Origin: an uncultured Gammaproteobacteria bacterium
GTDB lineage: Bacteria; Pseudomonadota; Gammaproteobacteria; PS1; Pseudothioglobaceae
Direction of reading: 5' to 3'
Assembly (NCBI GenBank): GCA_902512305.1
Contig: CABXIU010000003.1
Span: 1-60,363 of the forward strand
Length of the DNA stretch: 60,363 nt
Shown: positions 265-33,466 of the stretch, piece after piece
Position numbering within the stretch: the first letter of the stretch is position 1
How the letters are laid out: each line of letters begins with the position of its first letter
Made by a program: the position numbers and the translations under genes
Notes under the pieces: generated by a model
What the model was told of the DNA's origin: nothing
The model's input: the letters and a program-made list of their open reading frames with translations, nothing else
Databases searched by the model: none

Positions 265-963
265 CTAGTAGGTACTTTTTGTTGGTCTCTTGCCGTATTC
301 TTTCTCACTTAAAAATTGCGATATATATCCCTGTCTTGTCCACAAGAGTTTATAGTATATGGCCTGTATATCATCTACAGCTGAATCTTTAACTGCTTTT
401 AGCAACATTAAGTTATGCTTCCACTTTGATAGTTTTGGATATCTCTCTGGGGTAATGATAGGTTTATAAATTTGCTCTAAAAAATTCAGCCTTTGGAATA
501 CAGGCGCATAACTCGAGTCCACTAATGAAAATTGCTTTCCATTAAAAAATGGCGGATCTTCTAAACAATTTTCAACCAAGTCGAAATCATTCAGCATCAA
601 TTCAAGTGTGTCCTTAAATTCATTCTCACTCTCTTTGATGGAAAGCTGAAAAGTATATAGGCTTATATTGTTACAGAATTCAATCCAACTTCTATTGATC
701 GCTTTCTTAAGTAAATCTTCTGGATGAAGCTTTGGAGGATATGCCTCATCAATATACTCATTAATAACTGCTGATTCAAAAATTACCGTGTCATCAACAA
801 TTAAAAGAGGCACTTTTTTTAGTGGTGATATAGCTAAAAACCATTCAGGCGGATTTCCTAAATCTACATACTCTATGTCATAATCAATGCCTTTATATTG
901 AAGTGCAATGGCTACCCTTTGTACAAAGGGGCACGCCTTAAAACTAACTAGTTTAGGTGCCAT
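265..963 (-). CDS. Glutathione S-transferase family protein
   Basis: A 232-aa two-domain GST. Residues 4-75 form the thioredoxin-like N-domain: K-A-C-P-F at 9-13 puts a cysteine in the active-site position typical of omega/beta-like and lignin-type GSTs, VPLL (51-54) carries the cis-proline, and ES (63-64) binds the glutathione gamma-glutamyl group. The rest is the helical C-domain. ATG at 963 is chosen over a TTG six bases upstream; it lies 2 nt past the stop of the BKACE gene, so the two are translationally linked. In aromatic catabolic operons such proteins isomerise ring-cleavage products (maleylpyruvate isomerase type) or remove thiol adducts; which applies here cannot be read from the sequence. 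Confidence 0.85.
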   Translation of the reverse strand: MAPKLVSFKACPFVQRVAIALQYKGIDYDIEYVDLGNPPEWFLAISPLKKVPLLIVDDTVIFESAVINEYIDEAYPPKLHPEDLLKKAINRSWIEFCNNISLYTFQLSIKESENEFKDTLELMLNDFDLVENCLEDPPFFNGKQFSLVDSSYAPVFQRLNFLEQIYKPIITPERYPKLSKWKHNLMLLKAVKDSAVDDIQAIYYKLLWTRQGYISQFLSEKEYGKRPTKSTY

Positions 964-965
964 TG

Positions 966-1745
966 TCAATTAAAAAGCATACTTACTGCTTTTACTTTTG
1001 TTTCATTATTTGGGGAAATTTTTCCATCAGGCATAAAAATTGAGTTTTCAAACCCCACTCTAATCTTTCCACCAAGTTTTATAGCGCTTTTAATACAGCC
1101 CACTTCTTCTTTACCAAATGCACAAATAGCCCAATCAGCTTTTATATTATTTACTTTAGCTCTATCTAGAAAGGGCTGGATCTTACTTGGTGAGCTTATT
1201 TCGCCGGTGTAGTGACCAATTACAAACAAGCACCAAACCTTCTGTTTTGAGAGTCCAGATTGATCAAGCGCTAGAGCCAGCAAGTCAACATCTTCAGGAT
1301 CATAGAGGATGTGTTGAATCTTCACTCCTTTTTCGCTGAGGTATTGATAAATTTTTATGTCCTCTTGTATTGGTCGAAATGATGGAATCATTTCACGAAT
1401 GCCAATTGAGATACCAGGAGTATTAACATCATAGGCAAGTTTTCGCATATCTTCTGGTGTGTATCTTCCAACAGCCTCTGTTGTAATTTGAAGGTGCATC
1501 TCAGGGACAGCCACTTCTAACTCAGCCAACGCCTCTTTATAAAGCCCTGAGTCTAGTACATGAAGGCCGTTTTTATCCCGCACGTGAAAATGCATCGCTT
1601 CAGCACCAGCAGTGTAGCAATTTTTAGCTGTGCTTACAATCTCAGAAATTGAAAGTGGCACTGCAGGATGGTCTTTTTGCATTTTTCTTGAGCCGTTCGG
1701 CGAGACCATGAGTTTTGGTAATTCTATTGGCTGGTAAAACGACAC
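966..1745 (-). CDS. BKACE (DUF849) family beta-keto acid cleavage enzyme
   Basis: A 259-aa TIM-barrel enzyme. NGSRKMQKDHPAVP near the N-terminus and HFHVRD (52-57, zinc-binding His52/His54) are family hallmarks, as is RVGFENS near residue 230. The family condenses a beta-keto acid with acetyl-CoA, releasing acetoacetate and a CoA ester. Substrates vary widely (3-keto-5-aminohexanoate, dehydrocarnitine, beta-ketoadipate and others), so the specific reaction here is unknown. It sits between the aromatic hydroxylase and the GST in one leftward unit, suggesting it handles a late intermediate of the same pathway. Slightly short of the usual 270-310 aa. Confidence 0.88.
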   Translation of the reverse strand: MSFYQPIELPKLMVSPNGSRKMQKDHPAVPLSISEIVSTAKNCYTAGAEAMHFHVRDKNGLHVLDSGLYKEALAELEVAVPEMHLQITTEAVGRYTPEDMRKLAYDVNTPGISIGIREMIPSFRPIQEDIKIYQYLSEKGVKIQHILYDPEDVDLLALALDQSGLSKQKVWCLFVIGHYTGEISSPSKIQPFLDRAKVNNIKADWAICAFGKEEVGCIKSAIKLGGKIRVGFENSIFMPDGKISPNNETKVKAVSMLFN

Positions 1746-1790
1746 TTTCCTCTCCTTTATTTACGTTAAATTATCAATAACAGGTTCGCA

Positions 1791-3260
1791 TTAAACAATG
1801 TTTAATTCGTTTAGCTTATTTTTTATAAACTCATTTAAATTAAAGCTTGGGGGACAAGTTTCAAGAATAAATCTATCAGGTCTTACAATAATTGCCTTGG
1901 CATTATAATAATTTAATAGGTCTGCCAAACCTACAACTTGATGGCTATAAAAAGACTTAATTTTACTCTTTAGTTCATTATCTTTTAGCTCTGCAGCCAA
2001 AAGTAAAACTGGCTGCTTTGCGAACTTCAAGTCTAGTCTTGTGCCATTATTCATTGTTAGTTGAGGGAAAGGTTTTCCTCTATTCTTATCTGATTTTTTG
2101 CCAAGACCAGGCCCAAGTTCTGGCTGAATTGATTTCATACTCATAGTTCCATCAGAATTTTCGGAAATATTATTTGTAATTTTTGAAGTGCCAATATCGT
2201 TAATAAACTCACCCATTCTCATTGTTGTTTGAATATATTCCTTAACATTTGAGAACCTTTCTGATTGATACGTATCGAGCAGTTTTTCATTATGACCATT
2301 TGTTAAACAAAGACTAATTTTCCAGGCCAGGTTTGAAGCATCTCTAATTCCAGCACACATACCTTGTCCCATAAATGGAGGCATTAAGTGTGCAGCATCA
2401 CCTGCTAAAAAAATACGTCCCGATCTCCATTTCATAGCTATAGCAGATTGAAAAGTGTAAATTGTTTTTCTTTCTAACTCTGCCTCGAAAGGCTGTAGCC
2501 AAGGTTTTAAAAAATTCCAAATATATTTGTCAGATAAAATTTCTTTTTCATCCTCATGGTCATGAATAGCAAACTCCCAGCGCCTTCTTCTTCCAACATT
2601 TCGACAGTAGGTTGCTGGTCTTTTTGAATTTGAGTACTGAATAGTTCTATCAGCCAATTTATTATTATCATGTTTTAAAATTAAATCAACTACTGACCAC
2701 TTCTGAGTAAACCCAAGGTTTACAAGCTTATTTCCCATTTGCTCCCTAGTCGTTGATCCGGCACCATCACAGCCTATAACGTAGCTTGATTCTACTGAAT
2801 GAAGTTGATTAGTCTGAGTGTCTTTAAACACTATGTCTACATGATGATCGATATTTTTTATTTTTAAAACTTTTGCATTCTGTCTTATGGAAACTTTTTT
2901 AAAGTCTTTTAAGCTTCTTCGAAGCTGCCTTTCTAAGTCAGGTTGATGAAACCTATAGCTTGGATACCAACCATTAATCGTTCGAGATCGAGGACGTGGC
3001 CAGTCCAGTACTACTTCATCGTCTGCATTTACAAACTTAGTTCCTTTGTTAATAATTGTATATCTTGCAAACCTTTCTGAAATTCCAATAGACTGAAAAA
3101 TACGCATCACTTCATCATCAAAATGAACCGCTCTAGGAAGATTAAAAATACTTTTTTCACGCTCTAGAATTAATATAGACAGTCCATTCAGCGCCAATAG
3201 ATTAGCTATAGTTCCACCTACTGGACCAAGTCCCACTATAACAACATCATATGATTTCAT
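1791..3260 (-). CDS. FAD-dependent aromatic hydroxylase (MhpA/PheA-type group A flavin monooxygenase)
   Basis: A 489-aa flavoprotein with the three group A signatures: the dinucleotide fold GLGPVG (10-15) ending in an acidic residue (LERE, 32-35), the DG motif GCDGAGSTTR, and the GD motif in GRIFLAGDAAHLMPPFMGQG that binds the FAD ribityl. MhpA-like enzymes use NAD(P)H and O2 to ortho-hydroxylate phenolic rings, giving catechols for extradiol cleavage; the next gene upstream is exactly such a dioxygenase, 28 nt away. It is shorter than E. coli MhpA (554 aa), mostly in the C-terminal thioredoxin-like domain. The substrate is not determinable from the sequence. Confidence 0.85.
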   Translation of the reverse strand: MKSYDVVIVGLGPVGGTIANLLALNGLSILILEREKSIFNLPRAVHFDDEVMRIFQSIGISERFARYTIINKGTKFVNADDEVVLDWPRPRSRTINGWYPSYRFHQPDLERQLRRSLKDFKKVSIRQNAKVLKIKNIDHHVDIVFKDTQTNQLHSVESSYVIGCDGAGSTTREQMGNKLVNLGFTQKWSVVDLILKHDNNKLADRTIQYSNSKRPATYCRNVGRRRRWEFAIHDHEDEKEILSDKYIWNFLKPWLQPFEAELERKTIYTFQSAIAMKWRSGRIFLAGDAAHLMPPFMGQGMCAGIRDASNLAWKISLCLTNGHNEKLLDTYQSERFSNVKEYIQTTMRMGEFINDIGTSKITNNISENSDGTMSMKSIQPELGPGLGKKSDKNRGKPFPQLTMNNGTRLDLKFAKQPVLLLAAELKDNELKSKIKSFYSHQVVGLADLLNYYNAKAIIVRPDRFILETCPPSFNLNEFIKNKLNELNIV

Positions 3261-3288
3261 GTTTTTAACTTAAACGAGCTTTAGTTTG

Positions 3289-4263
3289 TCATTGTTTTTT
3301 AACCGCCTGAGAGTATAGCCAAGGACAGTCCACCAATAATGGTGCTTGCTTGCCTTCTAGTGCTGTTTCTAATCTTTTTGAACGAAACATAAGTCTCTCT
3401 TCATCAGAAAGATAGAGTCGCTCATGCCCCCAAAAACTAGGACCTTCAAAGGTTTCAATAGGTTCCCATGAGGACGGATCAATGATTCGACCTCCCCATC
3501 CATTCTCAACAAAAAAACCAGAAGGTGTGTGTGAATAGAAAGACGTCATATAATCGTTGCTGTGTCTTCCTAATGTATAAGCAATTGCATTATCTTGATA
3601 TTGTAATAAATCATATCCTTGGCCAACGTCATCAAGACTGTTGTATTCAATCATGAAGTGATGAAAGCCTGTCTTCCCTGAACCAAAAAATGCAAAACTA
3701 TGGTGACGGCCATTAACATGAAAGAAGCATAACGAAATTGGCGTATTACTGTAATCACTAATTTTAAAATCTAAAATATCGCGATAGAATGGTATCAATG
3801 ACTCTACATCTTGCACATGAATAACTGCGTGTCCCATGCCAAATGCTCCAGTTTTAAAGCCTGAAATAGGTCGAGCTGGTACAAATGGGTCAGTCTCCTT
3901 CATTGGCTTATAAACAAGCTCAATTCGATTTCCTTGTGGATCATTAAAATAAATTAAATCCTCTACAAAGCGTTTGTCAGAAAAATCTGATTTACCGTAG
4001 AATACTGGTATGTCAATTGCCTCAAGTCTTTCTGCATAGACCTGTAAGTCTTCCTTAAACTCAACCTCCCAGCCCATAAAAGCCAAACCTTCATCTTCAT
4101 TTTTTGTGACTGCTAGGCGTTGTTTTTGATCATCCATTCTAAAACTCAGTGCGCCATTTCCTCTATCTACCAGTTGCATGCCGAGATATTTTTGAGAATA
4201 TTCAGACCAATCACTGAGTTTGCTTGAGTTAACTCCAATATAACTGAGGGCGTTTATAGCCAT
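3289..4263 (-). CDS. Two-domain extradiol (VOC) ring-cleavage dioxygenase
   Basis: A 324-aa type I extradiol dioxygenase built from two vicinal-oxygen-chelate modules (about 4-120 and 142-262). Only the C-terminal module has the iron ligands: His145 in MGHAVIHV, His201/202 in GFHHFMIEY and Glu253 in FFVENGWGG; active-site candidates His187/188 and Tyr243 are also present. It should open a catechol meta to the hydroxyls. The start is set at ATG 4263, with GGAGG 8 nt upstream; a TTG at 4278 would place the ribosome site inside the gene. The C-terminal tail after residue 262 is longer than in most relatives. It follows the TRAP binding protein gene by 68 nt. Confidence 0.88.
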   Translation of the reverse strand: MAINALSYIGVNSSKLSDWSEYSQKYLGMQLVDRGNGALSFRMDDQKQRLAVTKNEDEGLAFMGWEVEFKEDLQVYAERLEAIDIPVFYGKSDFSDKRFVEDLIYFNDPQGNRIELVYKPMKETDPFVPARPISGFKTGAFGMGHAVIHVQDVESLIPFYRDILDFKISDYSNTPISLCFFHVNGRHHSFAFFGSGKTGFHHFMIEYNSLDDVGQGYDLLQYQDNAIAYTLGRHSNDYMTSFYSHTPSGFFVENGWGGRIIDPSSWEPIETFEGPSFWGHERLYLSDEERLMFRSKRLETALEGKQAPLLVDCPWLYSQAVKKQ

Positions 4264-4331
4264 TCCAATAGCCTCCAATAAAAAGAGCTCGCAATGTCAA
4301 CCAAAGAGAGCTCTTAATATTTTATTATTTA

Positions 4332-5354
4332 TCAGCCATCGATGCTAGTTATGATTTCTCTTGCTCTTTTAAGAACTGCATCACCATCTAGACCTTTGCC
4401 TTTCATTTCATCTAACCAGTCAGCTTCGATTGGCGCTAATATAGACTTAAATCTATCAAGACTAGCTCCTGAAACTTCAGACATTACATGTCCATCAAGT
4501 CCTGCAATTTCGGCTTTAAGTTTCGCATTTTGAGCATCAATCAGCGATGCTGCCCAGTCGCCAAAAGCGTGGCCACTGTTGTTGTCAATCACTTCTTTAA
4601 GATTATCAGGAAGACTGTTATATTTATCTTCATTCATAATCAAACCAAAAGTTGCATTCGTAATGTTGACTTCAGTATGATATTTGGTCACTTCATACAG
4701 TTTAAATGAGCCAACTGCAGTGTAAGGAAAAGGAGTTCCATCTACTACACCTTTTTGAAGGGCTTCGTAAGTTCCTGGAGCAGGCACTGACACTCCAGTT
4801 GCACCCAGCTTAGCAAGAATAGTTCCGGCTATTTTACTAGGTACTCTCATTTTCATTCCTTCCAAGTCACTAGGCTCAAGTACATTTTTATCCTTCATAT
4901 GAAACTGATATGCAGGGTTAGAGTGAAGTCCTACAAGCTTAATTCCATCCATTTCTTTATCAAGATACCCTTCTTCATATAGCGTATTAAGCGCCTTTGA
5001 TCCGGCTTTTGATGTTCTAGTTAAAAATGGTAACTCAACAACTGAACTTAGAGGGAATTGACCGCCAATATATCCTAGAACGGTCCATGACATATCAGCA
5101 ATTCCGCCTTTTACAATGTCATATTGCTTTGGTGGTCCACCTAAAACACCTCCAGCATATACCTTAACCTCAAGCCCTCCATTTGACTCTGCATTGACTT
5201 TATCTGCCCAGGCACTCAAAATTTTACTTGCAATAAATGCACCACCTGGCTCAAAAGTTGCTAATTTAATTTTTATAGCTTCAGCTGAAGCTGAACCTGC
5301 AAATGCTAGAGAAAACACACCCAGCATCAACAACTTTACTGTTTTTTTAAACAT
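4332..5354 (-). CDS. TRAP transporter solute-binding protein (DctP family)
   Basis: A 340-aa periplasmic receptor with a clear signal peptide (1-24, cleavage after SASAEA). The mature part has the DctP fold, including the conserved arginine in MRVPSKIAGTILAKLGA, the region that binds the ligand carboxylate in characterised members. TRAP receptors mostly bind organic acids. It is transcribed leftward while its membrane partners (6322-8132) are transcribed rightward from the shared promoter region, with the hydrolase gene between. Together they make one complete tripartite importer whose ligand is probably the acid metabolised by the neighbours. Confidence 0.92.
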   Translation of the reverse strand: MFKKTVKLLMLGVFSLAFAGSASAEAIKIKLATFEPGGAFIASKILSAWADKVNAESNGGLEVKVYAGGVLGGPPKQYDIVKGGIADMSWTVLGYIGGQFPLSSVVELPFLTRTSKAGSKALNTLYEEGYLDKEMDGIKLVGLHSNPAYQFHMKDKNVLEPSDLEGMKMRVPSKIAGTILAKLGATGVSVPAPGTYEALQKGVVDGTPFPYTAVGSFKLYEVTKYHTEVNITNATFGLIMNEDKYNSLPDNLKEVIDNNSGHAFGDWAASLIDAQNAKLKAEIAGLDGHVMSEVSGASLDRFKSILAPIEADWLDEMKGKGLDGDAVLKRAREIITSIDG

Positions 5355-5384
5355 AATATTCTCCTATATATTATTTTTCTAATA

Positions 5385-6242
5385 TTAATCATGAATAATT
5401 TCATCATTAATTTCATTTGATAGTATCCCAATATCTGAGATCTCTATCTCTACTTTATCTCCCTGTTTCATAAAAACAGGTGGATTTCTTTTTGCGCCAA
5501 CACCTCCAGGCGTTCCAGTGACTAAAACATCTCCAGCACGCCATGGTAGGGCTTTAGAGACGTAAGAAATCAACAAAGGAATGTCAAAAATAAGCTGGCT
5601 TAGATTTGCGCTTTGCATTATCTTACCATTCAATCTAGTTTGAAGTGAAAGTGCCTTGTAATCGGGCACGTTTTCAGCTAGAACCATATGCGGGCCAAAA
5701 CCCCCAGTTTTTTGGAAGTTCTTGCCCATACCAAATTGTCTTGTATGTTGTTGCCAATCACGAATAGTGCCGTCGTTATAACAAGAGTATCCAACAATGT
5801 GCTTTAAGGCATCCTCTTCCTTAATATGAGTCCCTGCATCTCCCATGATTACAGCAAGTTCGCCTTCAAAATCTAGATGTGTAGAAACTAGCGGTCTTTG
5901 AATGTGTTGTAAATGTGCTGTTTGACTATCTGGGAATCGATGAAAGATAACTGGATTTTCTTCAATTGTTCTATTTGTCTCTACAACGTGTTTATGATAG
6001 TTAAGCCCTACACAAATAATTTTTCCTGGATTTGGTATAACCGGAAGTAGCTCTGTTTCGTTATAATTAATTTTTCCAGGGTTTTCTAAAGCGTATTTTT
6101 TTGCTTGTGGAATTGCGTTCTTTGAAATTAAATCCTTTAATGTCCTGGCACCAAGCACTTTGTCTGTAAGATCAGTGATAGTATTTTCATCGGTGACACC
6201 GAAACGAGGACTGCCTTGTAAGTTGAAAGAAATGAATTTCAT
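5385..6242 (-). CDS. Fumarylacetoacetate hydrolase-family protein
   Basis: A 285-aa FAH-superfamily enzyme: an N-terminal cap to about residue 70, then GLNYHKH, the acidic metal site DFEGELAVIMG and the downstream Asp in NDGTIRDWQ that completes the divalent-metal site. Family members hydrolyse C-C bonds of acylpyruvates, decarboxylate or hydrate meta-cleavage products such as 2-hydroxyhexadienedioate. It is the first gene of the leftward unit, beginning 79 nt from the divergent dctQ. With an extradiol dioxygenase downstream, processing the ring-fission product is the most economical role. Confidence 0.88.
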   Translation of the reverse strand: MKFISFNLQGSPRFGVTDENTITDLTDKVLGARTLKDLISKNAIPQAKKYALENPGKINYNETELLPVIPNPGKIICVGLNYHKHVVETNRTIEENPVIFHRFPDSQTAHLQHIQRPLVSTHLDFEGELAVIMGDAGTHIKEEDALKHIVGYSCYNDGTIRDWQQHTRQFGMGKNFQKTGGFGPHMVLAENVPDYKALSLQTRLNGKIMQSANLSQLIFDIPLLISYVSKALPWRAGDVLVTGTPGGVGAKRNPPVFMKQGDKVEIEISDIGILSNEINDEIIHD

Positions 6243-6265
6243 AATCGTTTAATTTTTCATGTAAA

Positions 6266-6294
6266 TTGAATGGTAAACCATTCTAAAATAAAAA
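6266..6294 (+). promoter_or_regulatory. Divergent promoter with a TGGT-AA-ACCA operator
   Basis: The perfect 16-bp palindrome GAATGGTAAACCATTC occupies 6268-6283. Its TGGT-N2-ACCA core matches the operator type of FCD-subfamily GntR repressors (FadR-like). TTGAAT (6266-6271) and TAAAAT (6289-6294), 17 nt apart, form a plausible rightward promoter for dctQ with the palindrome covering the -35 and spacer. On the other strand TTGATT and TACCAT, also 17 nt apart, could drive the leftward unit, with the -10 inside the palindrome. One regulator could thus close both units. No GntR gene is in the window. Confidence 0.6.
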
Positions 6295-6321
6295 TCAATA
6301 TTATTAAAGCAATGTAATTTC

Positions 6322-6813
6322 ATGCAAAACATAATAAAAAAAATAGTCGACATTTCTGCAATATTGGCATGCATAGTATTGTTCTTATTGGCATTATTAA
6401 CTTTTTTTGATGTTGTAGGAAGGCGATTTTTTAATTCGCCAGTTACTGGCACCATTGAAATTGTCCAAATTGGAATGGCTATAGTAGCATTTTTTGCAAT
6501 GCCAAGAACTTTTTATTTAAATGCACACGTCTCTGCAGACTTTATTAACAATATATCAATAAGAAAATTTGAAGTTTTCATTTTAGTTTTTAGATTCTTA
6601 TTGATGCTTATTATGATGTCTCTCATGGCCTATGCAGCCTTACTGAGTGCAAACTCATTTTTCCAAGACGGAAGATCAACCATTGAACTTGAATTATATT
6701 TTTATCCATTTTTCTATCTTATTGCTTTTGGCCTTTTCATTAGTGTTACAGCTATTATCTTCTGGTTTTTGAGATCTATTTCTGAAAAAAAATCTGAATG
6801 GAGAGCTCTTTAA
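6322..6813 (+). CDS. TRAP transporter small permease (DctQ family)
   Basis: A 163-aa membrane protein with four predicted helices (about 10-30, 48-66, 88-110, 130-152), the DctQ topology. The conserved region between helices 1 and 2 reads DVVGRRFFNSPVTGTIEIVQ, typical of the family. It pairs with DctM in the inner membrane to form the Na+-driven importer fed by the DctP protein at 4332. The start lies 79 nt from the divergent hydrolase gene and just downstream of the palindromic operator; its stop overlaps the dctM start in TAATG. Confidence 0.9.
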   Translation: MQNIIKKIVDISAILACIVLFLLALLTFFDVVGRRFFNSPVTGTIEIVQIGMAIVAFFAMPRTFYLNAHVSADFINNISIRKFEVFILVFRFLLMLIMMSLMAYAALLSANSFFQDGRSTIELELYFYPFFYLIAFGLFISVTAIIFWFLRSISEKKSEWRAL

Positions 6814-8132
6814 TGGATTTAGATATAGACTCATTAATTAATGGCGGTTTAGCTTTTGCCACGGTATTGGCATTAATGGCTCTGAATGTTCCAGTCGGTA
6901 TTTCAATGTTGTTTGTTGGTTTTGTGGGTTTTGCATTAATTTCAGGTTTTGATCCTGCAATTGTTGTCCTAGGGTTTGCTCCTTATGAAGCTGTCTCAAA
7001 ATACTCACTATCTGTAATGCCGCTTTTTGTATTAATGGGAAATCTTGCAAACAGTGCTAACTTATCAAAAAACTTATATGATGCTGCGTATGCTGTTGTT
7101 GGTCATTATAAGGGTGGACTTGCAATGTCTACTATTGGCGCTTGTGCTGGTTTTGGAATGATCTGTGGGTCTTCCATTGCAACAGCAGCTACGATGGCTC
7201 AAATGGCGGGGCCTGAAATGAAAAGACATGGCTATAGTGATGCTTTAGCTAGTGGTTCAATTGCCTCTGGTGGAACGCTAGGCATTATCATTCCTCCTAG
7301 CGTTATGTTGGTGATTTATGCCTACTTAACTGAGCAATCGATTCAGGCGCTTTTCTTTGCGGCATTGATTCCTGGATTGATTGCAGTCGTTTTATATATG
7401 ATTGCAATTCGTGTTTACCTATATATATACCCAGATGAAGGTGGTAATGGAATAAAAATGCCTCTTGATGAAAGGATTTCTGCTATTAAAAAGGTGCTTC
7501 CAGTCTTTGTTATATTTGCAATCATAATGTCTGGTTTATACCTAGGATTTTTTACAGCAACTGAAAGTGCGGCTGTTGGTGTCATGTTGGTAATCCTGCT
7601 ACTAATGTTTAGAGGCGACCTAACAATAAAACTTTTAAAAGATGCAACCTGGGCTACAATTAGAACGGCTGGCTCTTTATATCTTATTGTTGCTGGAGCC
7701 GCTGTATTTAATTTTTTGATAACTGTTACAGGTCTTCCCTTTACAGTAGTTGAGTATATAAATTTTTTAGATCTTAGTCCTTTAGGGATAATGCTTGTTA
7801 TATGTATTATTTATCTAATTCTCGGAGCACTTATGGACTCTCTAGCTATGTTGTTTCTAACTATACCTGTCTTCTACCCTGTAATAGTTGCTGCCGGTAT
7901 TGACCCCATTTGGTTTGGAATATTTGCTATTATTGTTGTTGAATTTGGCTTGGTGTCACCCCCAGTTGGAATGAACTTGTTTGTAATAAAAGGTGTTATG
8001 AAAGACACACCACTTAAAACAGTATGGTTTGGAACCATTCCTTTTTTAATGACTGATGTGATTCGAATTGCTTTACTTATTGCTTTTCCTGCGTTATGTT
8101 TATATCTTCCGAGCTTAATGTATAGCCAATAA
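6813..8132 (+). CDS. TRAP transporter large permease (DctM family)
   Basis: A 439-aa polytopic transporter with about 11-12 hydrophobic segments and the DctM signatures GxxxGxxxPPS-like (SGGTLGIIIPPSVMLVIYA) and, near the C-terminus, VVEFGLVSPPVGMNLFVIKG; the two PP motifs mark the pseudo-symmetric substrate and sodium sites. ATG 6813 overlaps the dctQ stop (TAATG) with GGAG 9 nt upstream and is preferred to an in-frame ATG at 6798. It completes the tripartite importer. The sulfatase follows after 24 nt, probably on the same transcript. Confidence 0.92.
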   Translation: MDLDIDSLINGGLAFATVLALMALNVPVGISMLFVGFVGFALISGFDPAIVVLGFAPYEAVSKYSLSVMPLFVLMGNLANSANLSKNLYDAAYAVVGHYKGGLAMSTIGACAGFGMICGSSIATAATMAQMAGPEMKRHGYSDALASGSIASGGTLGIIIPPSVMLVIYAYLTEQSIQALFFAALIPGLIAVVLYMIAIRVYLYIYPDEGGNGIKMPLDERISAIKKVLPVFVIFAIIMSGLYLGFFTATESAAVGVMLVILLLMFRGDLTIKLLKDATWATIRTAGSLYLIVAGAAVFNFLITVTGLPFTVVEYINFLDLSPLGIMLVICIIYLILGALMDSLAMLFLTIPVFYPVIVAAGIDPIWFGIFAIIVVEFGLVSPPVGMNLFVIKGVMKDTPLKTVWFGTIPFLMTDVIRIALLIAFPALCLYLPSLMYSQ

Positions 8133-8156
8133 AATTAATTTTATTAAGGAGTATTT

Positions 8157-9737
8157 GTGGCCAAAATTAAAAACATACTTTTCATCATGGCAGATCAATT
8201 GAGATGGGATTATTTGTCATGCTATGGTCATCCAAATCTTAAAACTCCAAATATTGATAGGCTGGCAAGTAAAGGTGTTCTTTTTGAATCTTCCTTTGTG
8301 CAATCTCCGGTATGCGGTCCGTCTCGAGCAAGCACCTATACTGGCAGAACTGTTTTTAGTCATGGTTCTACTTCAAATCAAGTCCCATTGCCAATTGGCG
8401 AGCTCACTATTGGTGACTACTTAAGGGGGCATGGAATGAGAGTAGGGGTGGTTGGTAAAACCCACATGAAGCCAGACATTGATGGAATGGAGCGACTTGG
8501 TATTACCAAAGAAACAGAAATAGGCCTCATTATAAGTGAGTTAGGTTTTGAACCTTATGAGCGAGATGACGGTCTTCACCCAGACAATCAAGCACAACAT
8601 AATAAGACGCTTTCATATAATCAGTGGCTGAACAAGCTTGGCTATGAAGGAGAGAATCCTTGGGACTTGTGGGCTAATTCTGCTGAAGGAGAGAATGGGG
8701 AAATATTGAGTGGATGGAAACTAAGAAACTCGAACAAACCATCAAGGGTTGCTGAAGAGCACTCGGAAACTGCCTACATGACCAATAAGGCGATTGAATA
8801 TATTGAAGATTCTGGAGACGGGCCATGGTTTCTTCATTTATCATATATTAAGCCACATTGGCCATATATAGCGCCAGCGCCATATCACAATATGTATTCA
8901 GAAAGTCAATTCTTACCTCTGCATAGAAATGACTCTGAAAAAAAAGATGCTCACCCTATTTATGAGGCATTTATGAATGCCGAGGTTTCTAAAACTTTTT
9001 CTAGAAAGGAGGTTCGAGAAACCGTAATTACTGGATACATGGGGCTAATTAAACAAATTGATGATAATTTAGGAAGGCTCTTTAAGTTTCTCGAAAAAAA
9101 TGGACAAATGGATGACACAATGATTGTGTTTACATCTGACCATGGTGATTATCTTGGTGACCACTGGCTTGGTGAAAAAGAATTTTTTCATGAAGAGTGC
9201 GTTAAAGTTCCTTTGATCATCTATGACCCCAGTGAAACTGCAGATATATCAAGAGGCAGCAGAAATAAAAAATTAGTTGAAGCAATCGACCTACTGCCAA
9301 CCTTTTTAGATGCTACTGAAAATACTTCTAGTCAGCATCGTCTAGAGGGACAATCATTACTGCCAATACTAAGAGGGGATGACGAAAAAGAATGGCGGGA
9401 CGCCGTCTTTAGTGAAATAGATTATGCCTTTTATCATCAAAGAAAATTTCTTAACCTTGGGGCAACTGATGCAAGAGCCTATATGATCAGAACTAACGAT
9501 TGGAAGTATATATATTTCAAAGGATTTCCCCCACAGCTTTTTGACCTAATAAATGATCCGGATGAGTTTCATGACCTGGGACAAAAAGCTAAATATTCAG
9601 AAGTAAGAAGCGAATTAAAAGACTTGCTTCTGCAAAGACTTATCAACAGAAAGAATTTGGTAACAGTTACAGAGGAACATGTTCTTAAAGACAGAGATGA
9701 TACGAGCGATGATGGCATCAGGATTGGAGTGTGGTAA
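8157..9737 (+). CDS. Type I sulfatase (formylglycine-dependent)
   Basis: A 526-aa alkaline-phosphatase-superfamily sulfatase. Asp13-Gln14 in MADQLRWD are metal ligands and C-G-P-S-R at 53-57 is the exact C-x-P-S-R maturation motif, so Cys53 should become formylglycine. The C-terminal metal site is in SDHGDYLGDHWLGEKEFFHE. It starts with GTG, supported by AAGGAG 5 nt upstream. There is no signal peptide, so it acts in the cytoplasm on an imported sulfate ester or related phosphonate ester, fitting its place directly after the TRAP permeases. No formylglycine-generating or anaerobic maturase gene is in the window. Confidence 0.9.
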   Translation: MAKIKNILFIMADQLRWDYLSCYGHPNLKTPNIDRLASKGVLFESSFVQSPVCGPSRASTYTGRTVFSHGSTSNQVPLPIGELTIGDYLRGHGMRVGVVGKTHMKPDIDGMERLGITKETEIGLIISELGFEPYERDDGLHPDNQAQHNKTLSYNQWLNKLGYEGENPWDLWANSAEGENGEILSGWKLRNSNKPSRVAEEHSETAYMTNKAIEYIEDSGDGPWFLHLSYIKPHWPYIAPAPYHNMYSESQFLPLHRNDSEKKDAHPIYEAFMNAEVSKTFSRKEVRETVITGYMGLIKQIDDNLGRLFKFLEKNGQMDDTMIVFTSDHGDYLGDHWLGEKEFFHEECVKVPLIIYDPSETADISRGSRNKKLVEAIDLLPTFLDATENTSSQHRLEGQSLLPILRGDDEKEWRDAVFSEIDYAFYHQRKFLNLGATDARAYMIRTNDWKYIYFKGFPPQLFDLINDPDEFHDLGQKAKYSEVRSELKDLLLQRLINRKNLVTVTEEHVLKDRDDTSDDGIRIGVW

Positions 9738-9838
9738 ACTTTCATAAGAGTGAAAGAATTCTGAATTTCGCTATTGGATTGACTCTAGTTTTTTGAAGTG
9801 GATGAAGAATGATAATTAATTTAATAAAGGAGTAAATA

Positions 9839-10411
9839 ATGTCAGATAAAACGGTAAACGGAATACTTTATATAATTGCTGGTCTCGGTTCAATCGCTGT
9901 TTATATTCTTCTGGGTGACACAGGCCTCCTAAGTAAGGGCCACACTGAAAAAATTGCAGCTTATGCATTGATTACTATCCCAATAGCTTTTATGGTGACA
10001 AGGAATGTTGAAAAAAATGCTTTTATAAAAGTTCAGACATACATTGACGCCGGGTTACTAATGATGGTTGTTGGTCTCAGTATGGGTCTTGTTTCGGATG
10101 CTATCAATAGTGCAGAACTAAGTGCTGAATCTAATTTAATTGGTGAGGCGATTGCCTGGACAGGCTGGTCTATTATGTATCTTGGAATATTTTTTACTGG
10201 ATTAGGATATTTATGTACCAACCTTTTCCCTACTTGGCTATCGGGCTTATTATCACTTGCCTCCTTTGTAATGTTTGCTTATCTTGCTATCTTGAGTCCT
10301 GAGCAGTTATCAAACAGTGGAGACAGCATTGTGGCACCTTTATGGATGCTGAATAGCTTAGTTTTGGTTATCTTAGGTATATTCACTATAAGAAGAAAAG
10401 AGCTGGATTAA
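9839..10411 (+). CDS. Six-helix membrane protein of unknown function
   Basis: A 190-aa very hydrophobic protein with about six transmembrane segments (roughly 7-25, 38-55, 68-88, 104-124, 130-150, 164-182), short loops and a basic C-terminal tail (RRKELD). I recognise no family. AAAGGAG precedes the ATG. Its stop directly abuts the GTG of the cupin gene (TAAGTG), a tight translational coupling that suggests the pair work together. It follows the sulfatase by 101 nt, and no terminator is visible in between, so it may belong to the same rightward unit. Confidence 0.7.
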   Translation: MSDKTVNGILYIIAGLGSIAVYILLGDTGLLSKGHTEKIAAYALITIPIAFMVTRNVEKNAFIKVQTYIDAGLLMMVVGLSMGLVSDAINSAELSAESNLIGEAIAWTGWSIMYLGIFFTGLGYLCTNLFPTWLSGLLSLASFVMFAYLAILSPEQLSNSGDSIVAPLWMLNSLVLVILGIFTIRRKELD

Positions 10412-10774
10412 GTGTCAGAAACAAAGATATTCCGTAAAAAAGACCTCGACCTTGACCCTGTGAACGGTATGAAAACTATCGGTTTAGTCAATGTTTCATT
10501 TTCCGATAAACTGGGAGCAGGGATTGGCGTTTTTGAAGATTGTTCTATACCTTGGCATATAACTTATGACGAGGTTATCAACATACTCGAGGGACAGTTC
10601 ACGTTACAAGTCGGTGACAAAATATACGAAGCTGGTCCTGGAGACGTACTATGGGTGCCACGTAATACAGATATTGTTTATATAGCTCAAGAGCGAGTGA
10701 CATTTTTCTACTCTGTACTTCCTGCTAGTAACGCGCCATCAACATCTAAACAGATTGATTACGCCTCAACTTAA
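10412..10774 (+). CDS. Small cupin protein (EutQ-like)
   Basis: A 120-aa single-domain cupin. The first cupin motif is degenerate (PWHITYDEVINILEGQFTL has one His and one Glu); the second is G-P-G-D-V-L-W-V-P. The pattern resembles EutQ/ethanolamine-utilisation cupins and other small-molecule-binding or epimerase cupins. Translation starts at GTG immediately after the stop of the membrane protein gene. A metal-dependent enzyme or ligand-binding role for the substrate of this cluster is possible; nothing in the sequence fixes it. A 23-bp dispersed repeat begins 4 nt after the stop. Confidence 0.75.
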   Translation: MSETKIFRKKDLDLDPVNGMKTIGLVNVSFSDKLGAGIGVFEDCSIPWHITYDEVINILEGQFTLQVGDKIYEAGPGDVLWVPRNTDIVYIAQERVTFFYSVLPASNAPSTSKQIDYAST

Positions 10775-25757: not shown

Positions 25758-25834
25758 CGGGGCGTAGCGCAGTCTGGTAGCGCACTTGACTGGGGGTCAA
25801 GTGGTCGCAAGTTCAAATCTTGCCGTCCCGACCA
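25758..25834 (+). tRNA. tRNA-Pro(GGG), left copy
   Basis: 77 nt with encoded CCA. Acceptor CGGGGCG/CGTCCCG (one G-T), anticodon stem CTTGA/TCAAG, loop CTGGGGG giving anticodon GGG, T-stem GCAAG/CTTGC. It forms the left junction of the integrated element. Compared with the right copy it differs at base 16 and in the T-stem, where changes are compensatory. Confidence 0.95.

Positions 25835-33388: not shown

Positions 33389-33466
<78 letters not shown>

Follow-up and report, generated by a model that had tools for sequence, protein, structure and literature searches.

Do a sulfatase and a set of ring-cleavage genes that share one bacterial locus also share one substrate? This question is raised by positions 265-10774 of a 60,363-nucleotide stretch of DNA (here called the window), which is the start of contig CABXIU010000003.1 (C3) in the assembly GCA_902512305.1 of an uncultured gammaproteobacterium of the genus Pseudothioglobus, family Pseudothioglobaceae (1.48 Mb, 34 contigs, 89.6% complete). 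An interpretation made from the letters of the window only (the sequence-only reading) had taken eleven genes at this place for a single pathway through which a sulfated phenolic compound is imported, desulfated, hydroxylated, opened, and finally degraded in a CoA-linked step. This pathway could be partly supported. Comparison with relatives marks eight of the genes as a real catabolic unit, found in two unrelated planktonic groups (Pseudothioglobus and SAR11), and these eight very likely constitute one pathway. That they are a cassette for the catabolism of a sulfated aromatic acid, common to both groups, would be narrowly the probable reading.

The conserved unit (approximately positions 966-9737) consists of the genes for a beta-keto acid cleavage enzyme (BKACE), an MhpA-like hydroxylase, an extradiol dioxygenase, the substrate-binding protein DctP of a tripartite ATP-independent periplasmic (TRAP) transporter, a hydrolase of the fumarylacetoacetate hydrolase (FAH) family, the TRAP permeases DctQ and DctM, and a sulfatase. 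When the genomes of 84,980 species were scanned with the dioxygenase, at least 545 relatives were obtained, the best 80 loci of which were studied: one contig of P. aerophilus and 79 contigs of SAR11 (Pelagibacteraceae/Pelagibacterales), the latter with 75-78% dioxygenase identity. The window genes were sought in these loci by tblastn (E 1e-8). All eight core genes were present in 64 of the 80, and in the 16 incomplete loci the last core gene lay 0-102 bases from the contig end on each missing side; that is, no core gene was missing except at contig ends, as the sequence-only reading had expected of genes belonging to one pathway. The 63 complete SAR11 loci have one common gene order and orientation, in which the outermost places are again those of the sulfatase and BKACE, both inverted relative to the window. 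DctM identity ranged between 75 and 91% among those of the 80 loci that hold the gene (tblastn). In 13 SAR11 loci that were inspected, the outer flanking genes vary between groups while the cassette stays. As the eight genes stay together in SAR11 at this level of dioxygenase identity, their co-location is beyond chance.

The same picture emerged when the dioxygenase was not used as bait. Among 200 relatives of one SAR11 carrier of the cassette, 23 contained a sulfatase of 72-74% identity and two more one of 53-55%; the dioxygenase was found in 19, BKACE of the cassette type in 18, and sulfatase and dioxygenase together in 18. In the genomes with the sulfatase only (G199, G202, G223, G245, and G255) or the dioxygenase only (G165), a contig end lies inside the cassette; the contig of G189 stops just past the dioxygenase, and BKACE of G166 sits at a contig start. 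Among 115 genomes searched (the window's own included), a close copy of the dioxygenase was present in the own genome and in one of the same genus (G002, 89%); another genome (G088) held two homologs at 34-36%.

The eleven open reading frames of the locus, six on the minus and five on the plus strand, are as follows:

265-969, minus strand: glutathione S-transferase (GST)-family protein, 234 amino acids, GST_N/GST_C matches; non-core
966-1745, minus strand: BKACE-family beta-keto acid cleavage enzyme, 259 amino acids, PF05853; core
1791-3260, minus strand: MhpA-like aromatic hydroxylase dependent on flavin adenine dinucleotide (FAD), 489 amino acids, NF004829 and PF01494; core
3289-4278, minus strand: type I extradiol ring-cleavage dioxygenase (VOC), up to 329 amino acids, PF00903 and BphC_D1; core
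4332-5354, minus strand: TRAP solute-binding protein DctP, 340 amino acids, PF03480; core
5385-6242, minus strand: FAH-family hydrolase, 285 amino acids, proposed acylpyruvate hydrolase, PF01557; core
6322-6813, plus strand: TRAP small permease DctQ, 163 amino acids, PF04290 (49 bits), position kept in relatives; core
6798-8132, plus strand: TRAP large permease DctM, 444 amino acids, PF06808 (314 bits), TIGR00786 over cut-off; core
8157-9737, plus strand: SpAS-type arylsulfatase-family enzyme, 526 amino acids, 4upi/4upl matches; core
9839-10411, plus strand: hydrophobic protein of 190 amino acids, by eye probably a membrane protein, no Pfam family; non-core
10412-10774, plus strand: cupin (EutQ-like), 120 amino acids, PF06249 (57 bits); non-core

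The positions of the frames and strong family matches bore out the eleven genes, the two divergent units, and the families to which they had been assigned (Pfam E-values: Sulfatase, 3.6e-54; FAD_binding_3, 5e-59; FAA_hydrolase, 6.2e-60; BKACE, 3.6e-43; DctP, 4.4e-49; DctM, 1.6e-93). That all eleven form one unit held for the eight core genes but not for the GST, the 190-residue protein, and the cupin, none of which was matched by tblastn (E 1e-8) anywhere in the 80 loci; at least 2 kb were available beyond BKACE in 65 and beyond the sulfatase in 68 of these. The P. aerophilus contig (JACNFO010000023.1) ends at both cassette edges, too soon to judge the non-core genes; it extends only 188 bases beyond BKACE, where the frame equivalent to the GST has stops. 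In the window, 264 bases separate the left contig end from the GST gene, which shares 4 bases with the BKACE gene. The P. aerophilus locus has the window's arrangement plus the gene of a GntR regulator (PF00392 and FCD) between FAH and DctQ. This regulator gene (L008 5604-6326) has no counterpart at window positions 6243-6321 and gave no tblastn match in the SAR11 loci, so that regulation of the cassette differs. Promoter and terminator scans stayed near shuffle level and were uninformative. A protein of ~114 amino acids without Pfam family (F11) is encoded between the sulfatase and DctM in 33 of the 80 loci (e.g., L072:1454-1804).

In the pathway that we propose, DctPQM would import an anionic aromatic compound, probably a phenylpropanoid-like acid, from which the SpAS-type arylsulfatase would strip the O-sulfate in the cytoplasm to leave a phenol. 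The MhpA-like flavoprotein would hydroxylate the ring and the extradiol dioxygenase would open it, which, for a ring with two oxygens in meta position (resorcinol type), would result in a 2,4,6-trioxo acid. FAH, as an acylpyruvate hydrolase, would split this product into pyruvate and a beta-keto acid (R-CO-CH2-COOH), and BKACE would convert the latter, together with acetyl-CoA, into acetoacetate and R-CO-CoA. If the ring bears a propionate side chain, as in the hcd system (see below), this would mean 3-oxoadipate as the beta-keto acid and succinyl-CoA as the acyl-CoA; acetoacetate would be activated by an acetoacetyl-CoA synthetase encoded elsewhere. Comparison supports the unity of the eight genes and the aromatic-acid type of DctP; we infer that a sulfate ester is involved, that the ring has the resorcinol pattern, which bond FAH cuts, and what BKACE acts on. 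The exit through an acylpyruvase and BKACE, although arrived at by inference, is what best explains this set of genes.

The evidence for the first step, import, comes from the TRAP transporter, which is complete as had been claimed, with PF03480, PF04290, and PF06808 all over cut-off within one locus. The structure of DctP was predicted with a mean predicted local distance difference test (pLDDT) of 71, being weak at residues 191-221, and the model was used for a Foldseek search. The best matches were TarP_Sse (coumarate, cinnamate), TarP_Csal (caffeate, coumarate, ferulate), and TarP_Rhp (4-hydroxyphenylacetate), and another top match was a receptor from a marine metagenome described as aromatic-acid-specific; in total, 18 of the 20 top chains were titled TarP or aromatic-acid-specific TRAP receptor. 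A sequence search ranked the same TarP-type entries first. Thus, by both sequence and fold, the TarPQM transporters of lignin-derived aromatics (7nr2, 7nrr, 7nsw, 7ntd, and 7nqg) are the closest solved relatives, with 27-37% identity in the fold alignments. Arg170 of DctP is invariant in 76 of 76 aligned sequences. For TarP of Rhodopseudomonas palustris, nanomolar Kd values for such aromatic acids have been reported (PMC3610893). The comparison supports DctP as a binding protein of the aromatic-acid type, in line with the link to aromatics that had been predicted for it, and import of an aromatic acid by DctPQM is likely.

For the ring itself, the MhpA-like hydroxylase scored 514 bits with NF004829 (cut-off 390), and nine residues, which we take to form the flavin site, were invariant in 72 of 72 sequences. 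The nearest solved relative of the dioxygenase is BphC (1han). Its residues H150, H206/H207, E258, H192/H193, H239, and Y248 were invariant in 81 of 81 sequences; by analogy to BphC, these are presumably the 2-His-1-Glu iron ligands and the catalytic His and Tyr, so that the ligands, as had been noticed in the window, are all present (H150, H206/H207, and E258). The third enzyme matched PF01557 with 203 bits, its best NCBIfam model being that of a 2,4-diketo acid hydrolase (160 bits, cut-off 500). H85, E88, E126, and E128 were invariant in 73 of 73 sequences, and position 157 was Asp in two and Glu in 71; the H85xxE88 pair and the acidic residues we assume to be the catalytic and metal positions of a hydrolase. 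Among the eleven genes of the locus, to which the family scans for this purpose were confined, none was of the MhpC, MhpE, or MhpF type, and for this reason the classical meta pathway (mhp type) was dropped and the set can no longer be called a meta-cleavage set in that sense.

The closest parallel in make-up is hcdABC of Pseudomonas mandelii 7HK4, involved in the degradation of 7-hydroxycoumarin and 3-(2,4-dihydroxyphenyl)propionate (PMC6222606), which like the cassette comprises an FAD hydroxylase, a type I extradiol dioxygenase, and an FAA-family hydrolase; in hcd, the three act one after another on a phenylpropanoate of the resorcinol type. The hcd operon has these three genes only, without sulfatase, TRAP transporter, and BKACE, and the likeness considered here is one of make-up. 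There, 3-(2,4-dihydroxyphenyl)propionate is converted to a trihydroxy compound and further to 2,4-dihydroxy-6-oxonona-2,4-dienedioate (PMC6222606). This ring product is a tautomer of a 2,4,6-trioxo acid, and an acylpyruvate-type cut of it would give pyruvate and 3-oxoadipate. A resorcinol-type ring that ends in pyruvate and a beta-keto acid would explain the place of BKACE in the cassette, an enzyme that is easier to accommodate with FAH in the role of an acylpyruvate hydrolase. The systems for the catabolism of flavonoids (fde), isoflavones (ifc), and riboflavin/lumichrome (lum), compared by description only, have single kinds of enzymes in common with the cassette (PMC8552027, PMC11069340, PMC12746152) and are possible analogues of it. 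Zosteric acid was considered as a named substrate and set aside, as there was no evidence to choose it.

BKACE matched PF05853 with 148 bits (cut-off 24.8), and the best Foldseek match of its model (pLDDT 89) was Kce (DUF849, 2y7d), with which it shares the fold. H52, H54, and E233, the Zn ligands, were invariant in 71 of 71 sequences, and the alignment to Kce, the numbering and residue roles of which we assume to apply, showed the Zn ligands and Arg226 to be kept. Four NCBIfam models matched, all below cut-off (3-oxoadipate:acetyl-CoA acetyltransferase with 73 of 350 bits). Unlike Kce, the enzyme has E14, E143, and D231 replaced, comprises 259 amino acids, and is encoded in a context of ring cleavage and a sulfatase; it thus appears to constitute another subgroup, being neither Kce nor a curated member. 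The position of Kce E14 (R20) is occupied by Arg in 69 and Lys in two of the 71 sequences, which suggests a substrate with an anionic far end rather than an amino group.

The acetoacetate that BKACE is proposed to release would need activation. An acetoacetyl-CoA synthetase over cut-off was found in 16 of 18 carriers and in none of 14 control genomes; of 48 small non-carrier genomes among the relatives, 19 were positive. Within SAR11 only, 15 of 16 carriers compare with 19 of 48 non-carriers (Fisher p 1.3e-4, kinship ignored), and among assemblies of at least 1.0 Mb, the ratio was 14 of 15 versus 10 of 28 (Fisher p 3.1e-4, counted by hand, kinship again ignored). Activation by a CoA transferase was discarded, as PF01144 gave no match in 18 of 18 carriers.

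As for the sulfatase, the motif C53-G-P-S-R57 was the same in 70 of 70 sequences of an alignment that includes the window's own and leaves out rows below 90% length. D13, Q14, K101, H103, K232, H234, D328, H329, and K341, which we take to be metal and active-site positions, were likewise invariant. The N-terminus showed, by eye, no signal peptide, and a cytoplasmic location is proposed on this basis. Among solved structures, 4upi (600 bits) and 4upl (580 bits) came closest to the enzyme, along almost its entire length; they are the arylsulfatases SpAS1 and SpAS2 of Silicibacter pomeroyi (PMC5870055; PMC12421950). SpAS2 has a ~500-fold preference for aryl (p-nitrophenyl) sulfate (2.1e5 M-1 s-1) over phosphonate (4e2 M-1 s-1; PMC12421950). 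An O-sulfate ester is the probable target of the cassette enzyme, which we file as a member of the sulfatase family with a putative formylglycine.

A number of results weigh against the proposed pathway, and they concern its chemistry, the maturation of the sulfatase, and the coherence of the gene set alike. All six NCBIfam matches of FAH remained below their cut-offs. In BKACE, E143 of Kce corresponds to I146 (Ile in 63 and Leu in eight of 71 sequences) and D231 to N234 (71 of 71), and with both replaced, cleavage activity is not certain. Neither the titles of the TRAP receptor matches nor the accessible part of PMC3610893 contained a sulfated aromatic ligand. The carriers in the synthetase comparison were hand-picked and their genomes are incomplete. 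BKACE from a carnitine island would also yield acetoacetate, and this other source confounds the link to the synthetase. SAR11 carnitine islands do hold BKACE (PMC12421898), and a further BKACE (319 bits) is encoded at the beginning of contig C2 of the own genome (G000:C2:71-4001, L007). By eye, the genes that follow this second copy resemble those for a carnitine dehydrogenase/thioesterase and a methyltransferase of the trimethylamine/betaine type, and the locus reads like one for carnitine degradation. Finally, the authors of the hcd study suggest succinate and 2-hydroxy-4-oxopent-2-enoate as products, which were not identified (PMC6222606); with such a bond cut, BKACE would not be needed.

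Alternatively, the cassette, with the same aromatic import, could serve a conventional phenolic acid whose ring opening leads to a different type of product, FAH acting as a hydratase, decarboxylase, or isomerase and BKACE on a beta-keto acid derived from a side chain and not from the ring. FAH also resembles decarboxylase/isomerases of the HpaG type (145 bits) and 6j57, which is named a hydratase, and the ligands of the TarP-type receptors (coumarate, ferulate, caffeate, and cinnamate) are not resorcinols. However, such a substrate would be expected to come with an aldehyde dehydrogenase, an aldolase, or a CoA ligase, none of which is among the eleven genes; the NCBIfam model closest to FAH describes a 2,4-diketo acid hydrolase, with a score well short of its cut-off, and the HxxE pair, typical of FAH hydrolases, is invariant throughout. 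A conventional phenolic acid is a serious candidate but a rather unlikely one.

The acylpyruvase-BKACE pathway starts with a desulfation, for which the sulfatase would have to be matured. The formylglycine-generating enzyme (FGE, PF03781) was not found in the own genome (~90% complete), nor was there a PF03781 match in 44 of 47 carriers. The matches in the remaining three were EgtB-like, with an N-terminal DinB_2 domain, a combination with the FGE domain that we take for the architecture of EgtB. The three are the SAR11 genomes G154, G155, and G160 (L095, L096, and L097), two of which have, by eye, an EgtD-like neighbour; ergothioneine synthesis in some SAR11 is possible. The control genomes G088, G324, and G334 were all positive for the FGE family, and two of them hold a sulfatase of 53-55% identity. 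The anaerobic sulfatase-maturating enzyme (anSME, TIGR03942) was over cut-off in none of 18 carriers, eight of which showed weak radical-SAM matches (18-34 bits, cut-off 349). That the absence of FGE across so many incomplete genomes is a gap is unlikely. Of the cytoplasmic formylglycine sulfatase that had been claimed, the CGPSR motif with Cys53 stands; FGE is missing from the picture and the location was judged by eye.

With no recognisable FGE or anSME, the enzyme may lack formylglycine and do other chemistry. It could be a Cys-dependent or promiscuous hydrolase of phosphodiesters or phosphonate monoesters, with an aryl phosphate or phosphonate ester being the imported compound, and enzymes of the arylsulfatase/phosphonate monoester hydrolase group are indeed catalytically promiscuous (PMC12421950, PMC5870055). 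Yet the nearest relatives, SpAS1 and SpAS2, are arylsulfatases, and an invariant C-x-P-x-R motif (70 of 70) would be odd if no formylglycine were formed, which makes this explanation improbable. FGE-independent sulfatase maturation occurs in E. coli.

The coherence of the proposed sulfated-aromatic cassette has its limits, too. By dioxygenase similarity, the 80 loci rank first among at least 545, and farther out the expected joint presence and absence of the genes partly gives way to separate occurrence, in four plasmid regions, in two genomes with a sulfatase of 53-55% identity, and in G254. The latter (L108, C1:28000-46000) lacks MhpA and BKACE despite spare contig, and its open frame is longer than the dioxygenase match, which ends at residue 235; G254 is a true exception, in which the cassette is either deleted or misassembled. 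The two genomes with the more distant sulfatase contained no ring-cleavage set within the 18 kb read, one of them having an FAH at 30%. Eight plasmid matches had a dioxygenase of more than 54% identity, and four of these regions, all alphaproteobacterial, were inspected (Martelella sp. AD-3, Rhizobium sp. ACO-34A, Pannonibacter phragmitetus, and Roseinatronobacter sp. S2; dioxygenase 54-59% and FAH 43-50% identical to those of the cassette). FAH adjoins the dioxygenase in all four, TRAP genes are present in three, and an MhpA-like gene is adjacent in two (Martelella and Rhizobium). The four regions contain no ortholog of the cassette sulfatase; that of Martelella has one sulfatase-like gene (27%) beside sugar-transport genes. 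They contain no BKACE either, except for one at 25% in a neighbouring unit of Roseinatronobacter. Dioxygenase and FAH without sulfatase and BKACE imply that the latter two steps are not needed everywhere, and the core chemistry appears to be wider than the eight-gene cassette. That ring cleavage and TRAP import form one unit, to which sulfatase and BKACE are mere hitch-hikers with substrates of their own, is nevertheless most improbable: these plasmid regions and the terminal, in SAR11 inverted, position of the two genes speak for it, but both are retained in all 64 uncut loci, in genomes of ~1 Mb as well as in the unrelated Pseudothioglobus, with outer flanks that differ.

How one cassette came to reside in both groups was addressed with trees rooted with plasmid sequences or the sulfatases of 53-55% identity. 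In those of the dioxygenase, DctM, the sulfatase, and FAH, the two Pseudothioglobus sequences were sister to all SAR11 sequences; in that of MhpA, they fell inside the SAR11 sequences. NCBI taxonomy places Pseudothioglobus in the Gammaproteobacteria, and such identity across distant classes implies that the cassette is shared by lateral transfer, which may have run either way. Tentatively, and as a possibility only, the locus may be seen as a laterally exchanged, self-contained route from a sulfated, resorcinol-type, phenylpropanoid-like acid to pyruvate, acetoacetate, and an acyl-CoA, in which acylpyruvase and BKACE replace the lower meta pathway and the arylsulfatase is matured by an enzyme other than FGE or anSME. 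Carriage by phages was rejected: a scan of viral contigs yielded a single dioxygenase relative, of 45% identity (L116, IMGVR_UViG_2920101358_000003, 630-1631), and the other window genes gave no tblastn match in the 11.5 kb of this contig. By eye, its neighbours there are ParB/DNA-methylase-like frames.

Elsewhere in the window, the anticodon GGG occurs in two tRNA-Pro genes, at 25758-25834 and 33390-33466, ~7.6 kb apart, which seems odd for a small genome.

Judged by the families of its members, the cassette is a new combination of known enzymes. To our knowledge, accounts of SAR11 metabolism do not usually mention aryl sulfates or ring cleavage. No such locus was described in the titles and abstract openings listed by searches of a library that lacks most subscription papers, and the accessible parts of two articles (PMC4006046, PMC5770400) do not describe arylsulfatase and extradiol genes as linked. 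Interest in the cassette is raised by its SAR11 carriers, by the missing maturation enzyme, and by the concrete prediction that can be made for each of its enzymes. If the laterally exchanged route outlined above is real, a sulfated aromatic compound would be a common source of carbon, and perhaps of sulfate, for some of the most abundant heterotrophs in the ocean.

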